Source: a virus. From it: a stretch of 23,276 nucleotides of DNA. The notes under the pieces were generated by a model that saw only the letters and a program-made list of their open reading frames with translations, searched no databases and was not told the DNA's origin. Where the stretch lies: positions 1 to 23,276 of the IMG/VR virus record IMGVR_UViG_3300030106_003084; one strand, given 5' to 3'. Below, in pieces: positions 2,203 to 23,276 of the stretch. The stretch's first letter is position 1. The number at the start of each line of letters is the position of its first letter. Made by a program: the position numbers and the translations under genes.

Positions 2203-3260
2203 GCAATATAGAATTAACACAAGAACAAAAGAATCAAATACAAGAAGAGTTTGCTCGTAACCCTGATTTGAAACATATCACTCAAACAGTCTTTGAGAAT
2301 GACTCTCTTGATGGTCGCTCAAAAGAAGGCAGGGCTGTTAGATCATTTTTAATTAATAATAATTTAGAATTTACTACTACTTTAGTTCCAAGGGTGGAGG
2401 AGGTTGATCTAACATCAGAACAGAAAGAGTTTCTGATGAGTAATAATGTTGAACGTGGCATGAACGCTCTTGAAGTGACTCGCTTGACCTTTAAGGACAG
2501 AGAGATACAGCCACTAAGTCAACAACATAGGACGGTGATGGAATTCTTGCGTCAGTATAGACCAGAGATAGTTGATGATAATGAAATGTTGACTAACGAC
2601 AAGTGGTCTCCACCGAAATCTTTATCAAGAGCTATCAAAAAGGTGAATGATTGGGCTGGGCAGAATTTTGACGAAATATCCATCCAAACAAAACAAAAGA
2701 AAATGTGCGAGAAGCTTTTACTCTACTTGAAGAGTCCAAGGTTCGTGCATTTTATTAATCAATACTCAACAATAGCAGATAGAGATTTATTTGAGAGCGA
2801 ATTTGTGAGGACAGTGTGGGACAAGCCTGACCTAACAAACGATGAGCTAAATTTGTATATTACAGTTTGCACAAACTATGTCAGACAGAAGCATATCCAG
2901 CAAAGAATCGACAGATTGAATAATATGCTCAATGACACTGATAATGAACGAGATATAACATTACGTCTTACTGAGCTTATAAAGGCCACCAGCGAGGAGT
3001 TGAACCAATGTGAGAAAAGAATCGAATCTTTGACGAAAGACCTTAATGGAAGCCGTCAGGCGCGTTTAAAGGCAAGAGGAGAGCAGAATGGGAGTATTGC
3101 TGCACTCGTTGAGGCTTTTCAGGAGAAAGAAGAGCGTGACCGTATGATAATGATGGCAGAAATGCAAAACAAGTTAATAGAGGAAGAAGCTGATCGACTT
3201 GAAACGATGGACGAGTATAAGGCTCGTATTTTAGGTATCTCTAAAAAAGAAATATTGTAA
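2199..3260 (+). CDS. Helical protein with duplicated N-terminal module; possible small terminase
   Basis: 353 residues; starts with an ATGA overlap on the sigma-like gene. The N-terminus contains a module of about 50 residues twice (6-56 and 71-121). Both begin LTxEQK and end with F-x(10)-S-x(7)-FL (FENDSLDGRSKEGRAVRSFL against FKDREIQPLSQQHRTVMEFL). The C-terminal part (about 230-345) is a long charged helix, probably a coiled coil, ending KARILGISKKEIL. There is no signal peptide, membrane segment or catalytic motif. I do not recognise the family. Its place two genes before the large terminase, plus helical repeats and a coiled coil, would suit a DNA-recognising small terminase or other DNA-binding protein. 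No small terminase is otherwise visible. This is inference. Confidence 0.7.
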   Translation: MSNIELTQEQKNQIQEEFARNPDLKHITQTVFENDSLDGRSKEGRAVRSFLINNNLEFTTTLVPRVEEVDLTSEQKEFLMSNNVERGMNALEVTRLTFKDREIQPLSQQHRTVMEFLRQYRPEIVDDNEMLTNDKWSPPKSLSRAIKKVNDWAGQNFDEISIQTKQKKMCEKLLLYLKSPRFVHFINQYSTIADRDLFESEFVRTVWDKPDLTNDELNLYITVCTNYVRQKHIQQRIDRLNNMLNDTDNERDITLRLTELIKATSEELNQCEKRIESLTKDLNGSRQARLKARGEQNGSIAALVEAFQEKEERDRMIMMAEMQNKLIEEEADRLETMDEYKARILGISKKEIL

Positions 3261-4210
3261 TGGAATTTACTTGTCTAGAGTGTGGTAAGGAGTTTGACAA
3301 CAAGAGGAGTTTTCACGCACACCTGAAAGCTCACGCACTTACTATTGGCGATTACTATGTCAAGCACTATGGAAGAAGGGATTTATATTCGTGTGAAAAG
3401 ATCCCTTTCAAATCTTACGATCAATACTTTAGGGATAATTTTATCAGTTATGATAATTTTAAGTTATGGATGGACTCGGCTCCAGAGGAAGATGTCAAAA
3501 ATTACCTCAAAGAGAAAGCGAAACAAAAATTTGACTTAAAGGGGATAAAAAGCTCTCCACCTAACCTTTTTTATGATTTGTCAGAGATGGCTGGCATTTA
3601 TTATTATAAAAAACTATGGGGGTCTTATAAAAGTTTCTTGGATGAGCTAGGAGTTTATAATCATTTTTGTGCGGGGCTACCTAAAGACTTTTGGGAGGTT
3701 GATAGGAGTAGCATTCCTTTATTTACTGATACAAGAGAAAAAGCTCCGTTAAAATTTAAGGACTCTATAATTAACAAATTAGATTTTGGGGATTATACAG
3801 CTAGAGGTGATTACTATACATCTACATTTGTAGATAGAAAAGCTCAGGATGATTTCAGGCAGACCTTTGGCAAAGATATAGATAGATTCAGGAGAGAGAT
3901 GGATAGGTGTGTTCAGTTTAATTCATATATGTTTGTAGTAGCAGAGACAACTATTAGCAAACTAGAAGAACACAATAAAAAATCTAAATTCAAATCTAAC
4001 TTAGGGTATCTGTGGCACAATGTTCGCAATCTGCTTATAGATTACCCGAAAAACCTACAAATCATTTTTGCACACAATAGAGCAGGAGCTAAAAAAATTA
4101 TTCCACTGATTCTGCACTATGGAGACGGATTGTGGAATACAGACTTACAATATTTTATAGATGAACGAGTAAATGTCTTGGACAAAGGGAAAACAAGGAT
4201 ATCGGCTTGA
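3260..4210 (+). CDS. C2H2 zinc finger-ERCC4-type nuclease
   Basis: 316 residues. The N-terminus is a classical C2H2 finger (C5, C8, H21, H25; spacing C-x2-C-x12-H-x3-H) followed by a linked helical region. From about 153 there is an ERCC4/XPF-like nuclease core: TDTREK (D157), FGDYTA (D178), then FVDRKAQDDF (D192-R193-K194). This corresponds to the GDx(n)ERKx3D signature with Asp in place of Glu. The family cuts branched or structured DNA using divalent metal. The gene overlaps its predecessor by one base (TAATG) and the terminase gene by 38 nt. That coupling suggests a job in preparing concatemeric or recombining DNA for packaging. The nuclease fold is well supported; the substrate is inferred. 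Confidence 0.8.
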   Translation: MEFTCLECGKEFDNKRSFHAHLKAHALTIGDYYVKHYGRRDLYSCEKIPFKSYDQYFRDNFISYDNFKLWMDSAPEEDVKNYLKEKAKQKFDLKGIKSSPPNLFYDLSEMAGIYYYKKLWGSYKSFLDELGVYNHFCAGLPKDFWEVDRSSIPLFTDTREKAPLKFKDSIINKLDFGDYTARGDYYTSTFVDRKAQDDFRQTFGKDIDRFRREMDRCVQFNSYMFVVAETTISKLEEHNKKSKFKSNLGYLWHNVRNLLIDYPKNLQIIFAHNRAGAKKIIPLILHYGDGLWNTDLQYFIDERVNVLDKGKTRISA

Positions 4211-15739: not shown

Positions 15740-15767
15740 AAGCCTCGCAGAAATGCGGGGCTTTTTT
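15740..15767 (+). terminator. Intrinsic terminator after the first tail-tube gene
   Basis: Stem AAGCCTCGCA / TGCGGGGCTT (10 bp with one G-U pair), GAAA tetraloop, then a T-run at 15762-15767. It starts 23 nt after the stop codon, and a GTGTAA motif begins on the very next base. It has the same design as the terminator after the capsid gene. Confidence 0.93.
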
Positions 15768-15773
15768 GTGTAA
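15768..15773 (+). promoter_or_regulatory. GTGTAA motif directly after a terminator
   Basis: The motif touches the T-run of the terminator and ends 10 nt before the ATG at 15784. A gene so placed needs either read-through or a new promoter in these 16 nt. This makes it the most telling copy for a promoter role. Confidence 0.6.
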
Positions 15774-15783
15774 ACTACTATGT

Positions 15784-16641
15784 ATGGCTGTAGATAGAAT
15801 ACATTCTAGTGATATTCAATTATTTATTGATGGGTCTCGTATACCCGCAGTAAATTCATTATCTCTCTCTACTCCAAAAGAGGTTATAGACATTCAAAGA
15901 CTAGGAACTGCTCACATAACAGAGAGGGTTTTGTCTTCTAATCAAACGACGACATTACAAATGGAGATGTTGTTAACTACAGGAGCAACTGGAGTTGATC
16001 CTTTTTATCAGTTTCAACAAAGACACGGCGGTTTTCTCACTACTGGAAAGTTTGATTTTCAAGTAAAAGATACTGCTGGCTCTACTGTTATGAACGATGC
16101 CTCATTAACAAATTATTCAATAAATGCTAGTGTTGGTGAGCTTATAAGAGGAAACGCCACATATTTAGGAGTGGGAGCTACCTTTAGTGATGGGGGTGCT
16201 ATTTCTATAGATGACCAAAGTAATGATGATTTTATTAAGGGTTTTATGAGACCTCAAAAAATACAAATTACCACTACAACTAATGGTCAAGAGGGGATAA
16301 ACACTGAAAGTTTACACATACAAGATTTCTCTATTTCTGTAGATTTACCCAGAAAAAATGTAACTAGGATTGGACAAAGAAACCCTAGTTTTAGATACCC
16401 AGAGTTGCCAGCAGGGGGATCTATAGAGGTAAGCATGATCAAAAACTCTGTAACAGGATTAGATCTTTCTAGTCTTGTTTGTGATAGTGGAGTAATTAAA
16501 ATTGATTTAAAAGATGATCTTGGAAACTCTTTAATGGACTTTGTAACTAGCGGCTGTTGTCTTGAAAATGTTGATGAATCAACAAGTTTAGATGATAATA
16601 CTACAATTAATTTCTCTTACTACTTTCCTATAATACAATGA
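15784..16641 (+). CDS. Second tail tube-like protein, paralog of the 14460 product
   Basis: 285 residues from ATG 15784 (MAVDRIHSSD). A TTG at 15766 is in frame but lies inside the terminator tail. The C-terminal half repeats the pattern of its neighbour. DFSISVDLPRKNVTRIGQR corresponds to SASIEVPMSRTNISALGAER. KDDLG (243-247) and LDDNTT (269-274) are 26 residues apart, exactly as in the 14460 protein. The N-terminal half (IQLFIDGSRIPAVNSLSLST to about 40) is a second, more diverged tube-like unit. It may cap the tube, form its distal part or form a minor ring. It is less biased in codon use than its paralog, which suggests lower copy number. No contractile function is indicated. Confidence 0.65.
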   Translation: MAVDRIHSSDIQLFIDGSRIPAVNSLSLSTPKEVIDIQRLGTAHITERVLSSNQTTTLQMEMLLTTGATGVDPFYQFQQRHGGFLTTGKFDFQVKDTAGSTVMNDASLTNYSINASVGELIRGNATYLGVGATFSDGGAISIDDQSNDDFIKGFMRPQKIQITTTTNGQEGINTESLHIQDFSISVDLPRKNVTRIGQRNPSFRYPELPAGGSIEVSMIKNSVTGLDLSSLVCDSGVIKIDLKDDLGNSLMDFVTSGCCLENVDESTSLDDNTTINFSYYFPIIQ

Positions 16642-18770: not shown

Positions 18771-21700
18771 ATGGCGACAAGTCTAAATGCATCCCTAAAT
18801 GTAAGCCTTAATCCGCAAAGCTTAAATGCTTCTACAAAGCAGATATCACAAGCTTTAGGCAGGATTACAGGGCAAGCTTCTGAATTCCAGAAATCTCTGG
18901 ATGCTTCTACTGCGCGTGTGTTTGCATTCGGGGCTACAACTGTAGTCATTAATGGTGTAACGCAGTCATTTAAAAAACTTGTCTCTACAACAATTGATGT
19001 TCAAAAGAGGCTATTAGAAATTAATTCTATTTTCCAAGCTTCAGAACAAACTTTCAATAGGTTTAGAAATTCTATTTTTAAAGTAGCCCAAGAAACAGGA
19101 CAATCCTTCTCGACCGTAGCAGACGGTGCTGCTGAGTTGGCTAGGCAGGGTTTAAGTGCTGAAGAAACTGCTTCCAGACTTAAGTCTGCACTTATACTTA
19201 CAAGAATTTCTGGTATGGATGCTGAAAAGTCAGTAAAGGCTCTTACGGCAGCTATTAATGGATTTACTTCTGCTGGGCTTACTCATACACAAATAGTTAA
19301 TAAAATGGTTGCTGTTGATACAGCGTTTGCTGTATCTACTGATGACCTAGCAGAAGCTTTTAAAAGAGCGGGTTCTACAGCGGAAGATGCTGGAGTGAGC
19401 TTTAATGAATTGTTGGGTCTTATTACGGCGGTTGAGCAGAAAACTGCAAGGGGTGGTGCCGTTATCGGTAACGCATTTAAATCAATTTTTACTCGTTTAC
19501 AAAGAGGAACAACTATTTCAGAACTTAAGGAACTAGGGGTTGCTATTGATGCCAACCAAACTGGAGTGCAAAAACTACAGGCTCTTTCTACTGCTATAGA
19601 AGGGATTGCAGATCCAACTGTGGTTTCCAAAATCAAAGAATTAGCTGGTGGAGTTTTCCAGATTAACGTGGTTAGTGCCGCTTTAAAAGATTTGGGTTCT
19701 AATACTTCTATATTTCAAAAAGCAGCAATAACTGCTGCCAGTGCTACAAATGAAGCTTTTGAAAAAAATAGATTATTAAACGAATCTATATCTGCCCAGA
19801 TCAACTCATTGGTTCAGGGTCTTACCTCTCTAGCAGAGAGAGTGGGAGCTATCACATTTGGTCCTCTATTAGAAGGATTAGTTGGAATAGCTAGTAAAGT
19901 TACAGATTTTTTAAATAACGCTTTAGATCCAGAAAAAGGAAATGTTTTTGTAAAAGGATTATTCAAAACAATTGGCTCTTTTTTAAGTGGGCCAGCAGTG
20001 GTTATTTTCACAGCAGCTTTTGTTAAGATTTTTAAGCTAGTTGCCAAATTTGCTGGAGAGGGTTTAAGAACCCTTTTCACAATGGGAACCCAAACCGAGA
20101 GGCTTAAGCAGATTGAGGGAGGAATAGTTGGACTGCTTCAAAGAGATCAACAATTAAGAAATGCAATAACTAGTCAGACAGCAACTCAAGTTCAGAAAGA
20201 GCAAGCTGTTATAATGGCAATTCAAAGAGAAAATGCACTATTAGCTCAACAGGCTCAGTTAATGAGACAGCTAGCTAGTGCGGCTGCTGCCAGAGGAGTA
20301 TCGGGAATTAACGCAGCAGGAACTTTTACTGGAAGAAGGGGCAGGGCTTTTGCTGTAGGTGGTAGAGTAACTGGAGGGTCAGGAACAAAAGATGACGTTC
20401 CAGCAATGCTTACTGCTGGTGAATTCGTAATGCGTAAAAGCGCTGTAGACAAATTTGGCGAGCCATTTATGTCTAACTTAAATCAAGGTAGACTTGGATT
20501 TAATAGAGGCGGCTTTGTCCCGAACTATGCTCGCAGGGGAAGTATTGCTATAGGAGGCTTTGCTGGCCCTTTGCTAACTCCTCCTCAAGCATCTCAAAGA
20601 ATTACATCGGGAGTAATAACTCCAGAGCAAGCTGCTATGTCTGGTCATGTAATGGGAAATAAAAAGAGGGCCGATGGCTCAAACTTTCCAAGATATATTG
20701 CAGATAGCCCAGATAGTAAAAAAGCGCTTATGCTTGTTCCTCAAGCCCAAGCTTTTACGCAAGGTGCGCTTAATACAAATTTTCAATCAAAGAAAAGGCT
20801 ACAAACAAGGTTTTCTGGTTTTGACGGAAGTGTAGCTGGAATAGACCCCAATCTAAAACGGGATTCTGGATTCAGAAGAATGTTAAGGATGGATACAATT
20901 TTAGATGCTTCTTTAACAAGGGGTGTTAATAATGCTATGGATAGTGTTGTTTCTAAAAGTGGGGGCAAACTAAAAATGCAGCCTAGAAGGTTTACCACCA
21001 AACAGGTAAAGGCTAGGGTTTTAAAAGAAGGTGGAGCGGGTGCTTTTGGTGCATTAAGAGGAGCTATTTTTGAGTCTATTATAGACGCTGTAACTGGTGG
21101 TGTTAAGGCGGGAGCAGGTAACAATACTCTAGATGTTAGGATTGCTGGAGCATCAGGCAAAGTTGTAGAAGAGATATTTGGAATCGAAGGTTTGGGATAC
21201 AAATATGGTGATTTTAAAAACAGCCAAGGGCAAAAGGCAAAGTTCATTAGTCAAACCATGAGGAGCTTGCCAAGAAAAGGCGCACCAGTTGGCATGTCTT
21301 CAGGAGGGCTTGTTCCAAACTATGCTGGGGGCGCAGGTGTCCCTACCTCAATGATGAGGGTTCATAAGGACTCTAAAGGAAGCCCAATAGCTGTAACAAA
21401 TTTAAGAGACGAGCCTAATGGATTACAAGATGCAATAAAGAGAGAGCGTCAAGGGATTGGTATGTTTGCAGGAGGGTTTGTTCCTAACTATGCTAAAGGA
21501 GGCGGTGGAGGTCTTGGTGGAGCAACTGGGTTTATTTTAGCTTTAGGGTCAGTGCAAATGGCGTTGCAAACTATGGTCGCTGCAACAGATCAGTCAGCAG
21601 ACTCTAGCATCGCGCTTGCAGAAGCTCAAACAGACGCTGCTTTATCTAGTAAAGAAGGATTTAAAGAAAGAATGGCAGAAGTTGCTGCAATTGATAAAGC

Positions 21701-23276
21701 CTCAAGATCAGCGGCAACAGCTAGCTCTGGGTTAGAGGGCGTGGCTAGTGCAGCAAACACTGCTATTACAGGTTTGATGGCACTGTCTACTTTGAATATG
21801 GTTACTGGAGGATTTGGGGGAAGAGCTTTAGGGAAAGTTGGGACAGGAATAAAAGGAGGATTAGGTCGCGCAGGTGGAGCTATTGCTGGAACTAAAGCAA
21901 TGACTTCTTTAAGAAGTGGAATGCAAAGACGATTGCCAATGGGTAGAGATCCTATGGGTGGTCAAAGTCGATTCCAGATAAGGGATTCATTAAGGAAAGA
22001 TGGTTACAGTAAGTCTTTTGCAATAAGAGCATCTAATAATGCTCAACGTAGTGCAAACGCCAGAACTAGAGCGATGGGGAGAGTGGGTGGAATTGGAAAA
22101 TTTGCTGGAGCGCCATTGGCTGTTGGAATGGCTGGGTTTAGCGCCTTTAATTCTTTTCAAGATGAAAAAGCAGGGCTTATAACCAAACAAGAAAGAGATA
22201 GAGAGCTTGGTGGTGCTGGAGGAGCTTTGGCGGGAGGTTTAGGAGGAGCCAAAGTCGGAGCAATGCTAGGTGCTTTTGGGGGTCCAATTGGCATGGCTAT
22301 TGGAGGATTACTTGGAGGAGGAGTTGGAGCATTGGCTGGTAGCGGAATAGGAAAAGGGCTTGTATCTGCGTTTCAGGGGCCAGAGCCTCTTTCCCCAGAA
22401 ATCATGGAAAGATATGCACAAGTTTCTGCATCAAACTCAAGAAATCGTGAACTTGGCTTTGGTAGCAGTGATGCCTTTATGGATAGGGCAGAGCAGAACA
22501 TAAACAAAATGAGGGCCGCTGGTCAAGATACTAGTATTATTGAAAAAGAGTATGTTGAGGCCATGAAGTCATTAAAAAATGAGTATTCAAAAGAAGAACA
22601 AAATTTAGATGAAATAGAAGCAGCACAAATTAGATTAGCTCAAGCCTCAAGAGATCTTGCAGGAATAAGATTTGATACAGTTCAACAACAAGATGAACAT
22701 GATCGTAAAGTTAGAATTGCTACTGATAAGTTAGCTAGAGCTAATGAAAAACTAGCTGCCGCCAGAGCCGCAGCTACAAATCTTGAAGCAGAAGTAAGTA
22801 AAAGACTAGGGGGAGGGAAAAGCATAAAAGGGATGGCTGAAAGTGCCTCAATGCAAGCTGGTCTAAAAATAGCTCCAACCAGAGCAAATAAATTTGCAGG
22901 AGCAGCAATGTTAGCATCAGAGCAAAATGCTATGATGACAAACATCAATCAATTAAGACAAGAGCAACTGACTGCTGACCTTGCCCTACAAGCAGAGCAG
23001 CAAAAACCAGAATCAATGCAAGACACTAAACAGCTTGCAAAAGACGCTGCCGAAGCTGGTAAAAGATTTAAAGCTGCTGCTATACAAGCAGGAACTTCTT
23101 TTCTCAATAAGATGCAAGATATCGAGCATATGAGAGAGCAAAATGAAATTAAGATCTCAGCCGCCAGAGATAAAGCCGCTCAAGCTATGGCTAAATTAAG
23201 TGATCACCTTGTAAAAGAAGGTGGTGTTAATACAAGGGTAGTGCGGGAAGATGCATTAAACATGTTTGAGCTTGCG
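18771..23276 (+). CDS. Tape measure protein with embedded cargo-like domain, 3' end missing
   Basis: At least 1502 residues; the frame is open to the window edge. Residues about 80-260 match the TP901-type tape measure core (ADGAAELARQGLSAEET, then STDDLAEAFKRAGSTAEDAG and GGAVIGNAFKSIFTRLQ). A hydrophobic segment near 395-425 (GSFLSGPAVVIFTAAFVKIF) could enter a membrane. The usual tape measure phrase GEFVMRKSA is at 550-558. GG[F/L]VPNYA repeats follow at 580, 845 and 901, enclosing a non-tape segment with nuclease-like motifs. Residues 1147-1200 form a glycine-zipper hydrophobic stretch. After that come long Ala/Glu/Lys-rich helices. The protein sets tail length and is ejected ahead of the DNA. 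Length from such an insert may overstate tail length. Confidence 0.9.
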   Translation, partial: MATSLNASLNVSLNPQSLNASTKQISQALGRITGQASEFQKSLDASTARVFAFGATTVVINGVTQSFKKLVSTTIDVQKRLLEINSIFQASEQTFNRFRNSIFKVAQETGQSFSTVADGAAELARQGLSAEETASRLKSALILTRISGMDAEKSVKALTAAINGFTSAGLTHTQIVNKMVAVDTAFAVSTDDLAEAFKRAGSTAEDAGVSFNELLGLITAVEQKTARGGAVIGNAFKSIFTRLQRGTTISELKELGVAIDANQTGVQKLQALSTAIEGIADPTVVSKIKELAGGVFQINVVSAALKDLGSNTSIFQKAAITAASATNEAFEKNRLLNESISAQINSLVQGLTSLAERVGAITFGPLLEGLVGIASKVTDFLNNALDPEKGNVFVKGLFKTIGSFLSGPAVVIFTAAFVKIFKLVAKFAGEGLRTLFTMGTQTERLKQIEGGIVGLLQRDQQLRNAITSQTATQVQKEQAVIMAIQRENALLAQQAQLMRQLASAAAARGVSGINAAGTFTGRRGRAFAVGGRVTGGSGTKDDVPAMLTAGEFVMRKSAVDKFGEPFMSNLNQGRLGFNRGGFVPNYARRGSIAIGGFAGPLLTPPQASQRITSGVITPEQAAMSGHVMGNKKRADGSNFPRYIADSPDSKKALMLVPQAQAFTQGALNTNFQSKKRLQTRFSGFDGSVAGIDPNLKRDSGFRRMLRMDTILDASLTRGVNNAMDSVVSKSGGKLKMQPRRFTTKQVKARVLKEGGAGAFGALRGAIFESIIDAVTGGVKAGAGNNTLDVRIAGASGKVVEEIFGIEGLGYKYGDFKNSQGQKAKFISQTMRSLPRKGAPVGMSSGGLVPNYAGGAGVPTSMMRVHKDSKGSPIAVTNLRDEPNGLQDAIKRERQGIGMFAGGFVPNYAKGGGGGLGGATGFILALGSVQMALQTMVAATDQSADSSIALAEAQTDAALSSKEGFKERMAEVAAIDKASRSAATASSGLEGVASAANTAITGLMALSTLNMVTGGFGGRALGKVGTGIKGGLGRAGGAIAGTKAMTSLRSGMQRRLPMGRDPMGGQSRFQIRDSLRKDGYSKSFAIRASNNAQRSANARTRAMGRVGGIGKFAGAPLAVGMAGFSAFNSFQDEKAGLITKQERDRELGGAGGALAGGLGGAKVGAMLGAFGGPIGMAIGGLLGGGVGALAGSGIGKGLVSAFQGPEPLSPEIMERYAQVSASNSRNRELGFGSSDAFMDRAEQNINKMRAAGQDTSIIEKEYVEAMKSLKNEYSKEEQNLDEIEAAQIRLAQASRDLAGIRFDTVQQQDEHDRKVRIATDKLARANEKLAAARAAATNLEAEVSKRLGGGKSIKGMAESASMQAGLKIAPTRANKFAGAAMLASEQNAMMTNINQLRQEQLTADLALQAEQQKPESMQDTKQLAKDAAEAGKRFKAAAIQAGTSFLNKMQDIEHMREQNEIKISAARDKAAQAMAKLSDHLVKEGGVNTRVVREDALNMFELA
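20508..20531 (+). repeat. GGFVPNYA repeat 1 in the tape measure protein
   Basis: Residues 580-587, GGFVPNYA, directly after the GEFV-type tape measure phrase and GRLGFNR. It opens the atypical segment. Codons differ from those of the other copies, so the amino acid sequence rather than the DNA is conserved. Confidence 0.85.
20532..21302 (+). other. Cargo-like domain inside the tape measure protein, PD-(D/E)xK-like
   Basis: Residues 588-844. This part lacks the Ala-rich helical repeats of tape measures and reads like a globular domain. After a Gly/Pro-rich start come RYIADSPDSKKALMLVPQA (about 640) and FSGFDGSVAGIDPNLKRDSG. The C-terminal third has the order expected of a PD-(D/E)xK nuclease. 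This is a helix with E768 (ALRGAIFESIIDAV), a strand with D788 (NTLDVR), then GDFK (D814, K816) and a following helix KAKFISQTMRSL. I associate this arrangement with domains set between GFVPNFA-type repeats in other marine phage tail proteins. The nuclease reading is motif-based and unproven. Confidence 0.55.
21303..21326 (+). repeat. GGLVPNYA repeat 2 in the tape measure protein
   Basis: Residues 845-852, GGLVPNYA. It closes the nuclease-like segment. A 48-residue linker follows, with VTNLRDEPNGLQDAIKRERQ, before the third copy. Confidence 0.85.
21471..21494 (+). repeat. GGFVPNYA repeat 3 in the tape measure protein
   Basis: Residues 901-908, GGFVPNYA, preceded by GIGMFA and followed by KGGGGGLGG. 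The sequence then returns to hydrophobic and helical tape measure character (FILALGSVQMALQTMVAATD). Confidence 0.85.

Follow-up and report, generated by a model that had tools for sequence, protein, structure and literature searches.

A putative nuclease cassette bordered by short peptide repeats within a phage tape measure protein

The window, that is, the whole stretch of 23,276 nucleotides that was analyzed, ends inside a long open reading frame (ORF) that had been taken for a tape measure protein (TMP). This assignment is upheld by Pfam and PHROG: the profile PF10145 reaches 89.5 bits, with its cut-off at 33.2, and the tape measure families of PHROG match down to 6e-41 (phrog_4211). The frame is open at its 3' end; a 98% identical copy (L002) has an open frame of 1720 residues. 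The N-terminus is ~25% similar to TMPs of the SPbeta YomI type. Upstream of the TMP lie genes for PhoH (475-1152), a phage-encoded sigma-70 region 2 protein (1519-2202, above its Pfam cut-off) and a terminase, and a weak DUF2001 match at 15766-16641 (E 0.022, below cut-off) may mark the tail tube. An ORF at 3260-4210 resembles a C2H2 zinc finger at its N-terminus and, weakly, an ERCC4-type nuclease, with neither match reaching its Pfam cut-off. The features of the TMP gene are as follows.

18771..23276, + strand: TMP ORF, 1502 residues in the window, open at the 3' end
19080..19649, + strand: PhageMin_Tail domain (PF10145), conserved N-terminal region of the TMP, residues 104-293
20358..20507, + strand: pre-repeat module GGSGTKDDVPAMLTAGEFVMRKSAV..., residues 530-579, replaced independently of the cargo in L126
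20508..20531, + strand: repeat 1, GGFVPNYA, residues 580-587
20532..21302, + strand: cargo domain, residues 588-844, AlphaFold2 pLDDT 84.6, pTM 0.73
21000..21296, + strand: conserved nuclease-like core, residues 744-842
21072-21074, + strand: E768, in the nuclease-like core
21132-21134, + strand: D788, in the nuclease-like core
21210-21212, + strand: D814, in the nuclease-like core
21216-21218, + strand: K816, in the nuclease-like core
21303..21326, + strand: repeat 2, GGLVPNYA, residues 845-852
21327..21470, + strand: short shared linker module between repeats 2 and 3, residues 853-900
21471..21494, + strand: repeat 3, GGFVPNYA, residues 901-908
22212..22355, + strand: glycine-zipper segment AGGALAGGLGGAKVGAMLGAFGGPIGMAIGGLLGGGVGALAG, candidate membrane-active element downstream of the cargo, residues 1148-1195

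Inspection of the ORF confirms the three near-identical octapeptides with differing codons at residues 580, 845 and 901, whose 24-base copies differ at synonymous positions. The pattern G[FL]VPN[YF] is expected 0.00005 times per shuffled window TMP, at most 1 in 20,000 shuffles; with so low an expectation per protein, the three copies are not a product of chance. Both stretches enclosed by the repeats had been described as inserts unlike the surrounding tape. This description holds for the 257-residue insert, which is predicted to form a compact non-tape domain. In contrast, the 48 residues that separate repeat 2 from repeat 3 represent a short and common linker module with the motif VxNxxDEPxG rather than a second nuclease. 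We dropped the idea of intein-like splicing, as both borders carry the same peptide and intein end residues are lacking. We define repeat-bordered TMP cargo here as a non-tape module within a TMP that is flanked by at least two G[FLY][IV]PN[FY] peptides, a class that includes the window TMP.

The initial annotation had proposed that E768, D788, D814 and K816 are arranged as in a PD-(D/E)xK active site. All four residues can be read directly from the window ORF, and their conservation was first addressed by aligning the inter-repeat stretch with 15 IMG/VR homologues, most of them only 18-23% identical to the window. Outside the repeats, the invariant positions of this 16-sequence alignment are G764, F767, E768, D788, D814 and K816, and no others. 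Searching with a profile of the core then recovered 131 copies from ORFs that bear repeats, 114 of them distinct. Conservation was counted across 84 diverse homologues below 60% identity, a set whose gathering by profile favors conserved positions. F767 joins the positions below as near-invariant in this set. Here D788 and G764 are each kept in 84 of 84, E768 is kept in 82 with D in the other two, position 814 is D in 62 and E in 21, and K816 is kept in all 83 sequences that have a letter at that position. No further charged position equals the conservation of the active site, with the exception of K/Q828. The proposed residues are thus conserved across highly diverged relatives. Alternation of D and E ahead of xK is the textbook PD-(D/E)xK pattern, and the order E, D, [D/E]xK with a preceding GxxFE is typical of these enzymes. 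Loci L387 and L401 carry a divergent version of the TMP nuclease that default HMMER filters miss and in which NIQE...FDL...EVK can be discerned by eye.

Structure prediction for residues 588-844 yielded a poor model from the 16-sequence input (pLDDT 56). With 85 sequences, AlphaFold2 returned a confident, compact alpha/beta domain (mean pLDDT 84.6, pTM 0.73), and not an ordinary helical tape measure. In the numbering of the domain, the model places the conserved E on a helix spanning 168-188 and the DxK motif on a strand spanning 225-228, with the D at the start of a short strand and a helix following the DxK strand, to give the order helix(E)-strand(D)-helix-strand(DxK)-helix. A predicted helix therefore separates the strand of the D from that of the DxK motif, and no counterpart of the classical core's beta-1 strand is visible downstream of the E helix.

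Searches for relatives of this fold and family were negative within their respective scopes. Foldseek found no match to the model among solved structures in the PDB or viral predicted structures in BFVD; hhalign found no profile match to PDDEXK_1, Cas4 or Mrr, where the three alignments were small or thin; and the cargo family is absent from Pfam, NCBIfam, PHROG and PADLOC. The insert has no lysozyme, peptidase or transglycosylase family matches, and isolate phages yielded no cargo homologue. A PDB sequence profile search hit plant hemopexin-fold lectins at E ~4e-5, a match we rejected as chance because no single stretch does better than E ~0.35 and the alignment is confined to the GxxFE helix region. 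The PD-(D/E)xK reading therefore stands for the residues, their order and their conservation, but not for the fold, to which neither Foldseek nor hhalign gave a match. Since Foldseek, the libraries and the profiles all came back empty, we call the domain nuclease-like by its active site and not a proven member of the superfamily.

It is conceivable, if unlikely, that the domain is an active hydrolase of another fold or with another substrate, such as nucleotides or RNA, which arrived at an E/D/DxK site by convergence. The failure of Foldseek and hhalign to return a PD-(D/E)xK relative would fit such an enzyme, as would the helix inserted between the D and DxK strands. Against it stand the residue order, the D/E alternation and the GxxFE motif, which typify PD-(D/E)xK enzymes, and a separate cargo family (cluster 18) in which GRvFE occurs together with PDI and EaK.

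The initial annotation also asked which domains lie between copies of the repeat. IMG/VR TMPs with 2-11 repeats hold 578 distinct inter-repeat stretches: 117 with the window-type nuclease, 221 short stretches of fewer than 100 residues and 240 that fall into 81 clusters. Inspection of these stretches reveals SNase, GNAT, HAD-like, kinase-like and ART-like modules bordered by the repeats. Matches above Pfam cut-offs are GNAT (L237:9920-10321), SNase (L037:1726-2352) and HIGH_NTase1_ass, a region associated with HIGH-type nucleotidyltransferases (L017:4142-6166). The HAD-like, kinase-like and ART-like modules, and further E/D/ExK nuclease-like families, are readings of consensus motifs, and the ART-PolyVal match lies below its Pfam cut-off. 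Such HAD-, kinase- and ART-like modules lie between copies of this repeat in L020, L039, L324 and others, with up to 11 repeats in a single ORF. An inter-repeat module at L153:810-1880 contains a NEATH stretch and may be a zincin-like peptidase, possibly a self-processing enzyme.

To survey the lineage independently of the repeats, TMP residues 1-500 were used as the query, which gave 67 loci, 48 of them with a TMP complete at its 3' end. The nuclease-like domain is present in all 48 complete TMPs fetched in this way by the N-terminus alone, 41 being found at default filters and the other seven at E 3e-9 or better with filters off. Its sequence varies greatly. Among TMP pairs with 80-90% identical N-termini, the nuclease cores are 28% identical at the median and 18% at the fifth percentile. 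Individual comparisons with the window locate the exchange more closely. L090 is 86% identical in the pre-repeat module, 14-16% in the N-terminal half of the cargo and 56% in the linker module; L004 is 85% identical in the linker module and only 16-33% in the cargo; and L126 is 24% identical in the pre-repeat module and 71-90% across most of the cargo. Because these identities differ from module to module, at least three modules are replaced independently. No empty site, which would be a complete TMP that has just one repeat where repeats normally lie, turned up in motif scans that would favor repeats. Judged by these sequence comparisons, the nuclease-like domain is a cassette that is exchanged and diversifies: its presence is constant, but its sequence varies. 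The modular cargo first proposed is thus an exchanged module, but not an occasional one: it is hypervariable and nonetheless found in every complete relative of this TMP lineage.

Presence in 48 of 48 complete TMPs is also what would be expected of a core life-cycle function, such that the nuclease could serve the phage's own DNA, by trimming or nicking it at packaging, tail joining or entry, and not act on host or rival DNA at all. We consider this improbable. Within a single lineage, a housekeeping function should not diversify or be replaced to the point where cores share 28% identity between TMPs that are 80-90% identical, and kinase-, GNAT- and ART-like modules fill similar slots in TMPs elsewhere.

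The repeats were next considered as borders. Across 753 copies, all of which matched the search pattern, the consensus is A[AS]xG[FY][IV]PN[FY]A. The repeats are specific to TMPs: among the 131 multi-repeat ORFs that have 450 or more residues ahead of their first repeat, 128 give a match to the N-terminus of the window TMP. A repeat falls inside the nuclease domain in only 8 of 114 cases, compared with 51.8 expected from random placement, which in 1000 trials gave no value below 32. Of the 48 complete TMPs, 21 carry exact repeats and 27 lack them; in most of the latter, looser variants (GGYMPKFA, GHIPRFA and GGFIPKFA among them) take up the equivalent positions. The loose motif Gx[IVLM]P[NKR][FYL] lies within 90 residues downstream of 36 of 38 nuclease domains and within 200 residues upstream of 25 of 38, and 82 of 85 loose motifs in these proteins fall in the cargo region, the 30% of TMP length around the domain. 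That is to say, the repeats do sit at domain borders in relatives, as anticipated, but the exact repeat is not obligatory and about half of the relatives lack it. When cellular genomes were scanned for GGFVPNFA, 13 stretches came up, close to the chance number by our own estimate; only two of them lie in TMP-like ORFs that bear repeats, and both of these ORFs are located on small contigs from uncultured bins.

Precise replacement of modules between repeats would also be seen if the repeats were DNA recombination sites for cassette swapping that play no role in the protein, an explanation we regard as very unlikely. Codon identity of repeats within a gene is 0.552, hardly above the 0.506 expected from codon usage, and the constant part of the repeat is the amino acid pair PN. 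Because codon sharing barely exceeds this expectation, the peptide and not the DNA is conserved. The repeats may act as a processing site, a docking peptide or a linker. Least probable of all is a structural or spacer insert that helps build the tail, with the repeats as flexible linkers and no enzyme delivered. In its favor, the role of TMPs is structural and no partner of the repeats is known; against it, the catalytic-type residues are the most conserved as all else diverges, and other inserts in the same TMP class match enzyme families.

Together, these observations lead us to favor, at a probability of roughly 60%, a TMP that carries a metal-dependent nuclease with a PD-(D/E)xK-type site, ejected with the TMP ahead of the genome and acting in the new host cell, with the repeats as borders at the level of the protein. 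A discrete, folded nuclease module would occupy a fixed slot after the conserved N-terminal region of the TMP. TMPs fill the tail lumen and exit before the DNA (PMC7296036), such that on opening of the tail the TMP would leave ahead of the genome and take the module with it. A point against this reading is that, the tail lumen being narrow, the folded 257-residue domain may have to travel unfolded. Insertion of the TMP into the membrane would then expose the cassette in the cytoplasm. A glycine zipper is required for the DNase effector Tde1 to cross its target membrane, and such zippers have been noted in some TMPs (PMC10240207). The window TMP has a strong one ~240 residues after the cargo, and strong zippers are present in 48 of 143 multi-repeat TMPs. 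Once exposed, the cassette would cleave nucleic acid in the newly infected cell, most likely DNA. The Gx[IV]PN[FY]A peptides would serve as linkers, perhaps also recognized by a partner, between which cassettes swap as the tape scaffold remains constant. Three purposes would fit: breaking down host DNA as a source of nucleotides, eliminating rival DNA, or countering immunity.

Diversification of the cassette suggests conflict with a changing partner, and its near-constant presence together with its extreme divergence points to conflict in the first moments of infection. A broader proposal, to which we give slightly less than an even chance, is that the exchangeable nuclease is a lineage-wide first-strike weapon sent ahead of the genome and that Gx[IV]PN[FY]A is a general border or loading signal for interchangeable injected enzymes across a broader class of TMPs from uncultured phages. 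If true, the TMP would be a regular carrier of cytoplasmic effectors, beyond its roles as ruler and channel, and a short peptide would predict where cargo starts and ends, making injected effectors readable from sequence across many uncultured phages. It would also offer an uncharacterized nuclease-like family to test and suggest a natural cassette slot in phage tails.

Our search of the open-licence PMC literature yielded no paper that describes nuclease cassettes between repeats in phage TMPs, and several known systems share parts of the arrangement. As in the PD-(D/E)xK superfamily, the window domain has a Glu on a predicted helix after GxxF, an Asp, a (D/E)xK motif and then a predicted helix with a conserved K/Q; unlike the superfamily, it is built into a TMP and has a predicted helix between its D and DxK strands. 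Polyvalent proteins of phages and conjugative elements combine ART, GNAT, kinase and nuclease domains in one long polypeptide that is presumably co-injected with DNA (Iyer et al. 2017, PMC5512222). They are said to be head-packaged or transferred via a T4SS, and the word 'tape' is absent from that paper, whereas the carrier in the window is a TMP with peptide-bordered modules. Several enzyme-like domains in one protein are found in relatives such as L020, L023 and L033 but not in the window TMP, which has only one. TMPs with muralytic domains are known, for example in mycobacteriophage TM4 (PMC1796659), and these, like the Bacillus SPbeta-type proteins, also hold an enzyme domain within the TMP. 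Their enzymes act on peptidoglycan, in contrast to the nuclease-type site of the window, whose action would be cytoplasmic. Effectors of the Sle1 type, from contractile injection systems of actinobacteria, likewise join a TMP-related delivery part to exchangeable functional domains (PMC13277306), yet are effectors of cellular injection systems, whereas the window encodes a phage TMP with an internal, repeat-bordered cassette. Finally, the T6SS effector Tde1 resembles the proposed arrangement in pairing a DNase with a glycine zipper for membrane crossing (PMC10240207), but does so with an unrelated nuclease family (Ntox15) and an unrelated apparatus.
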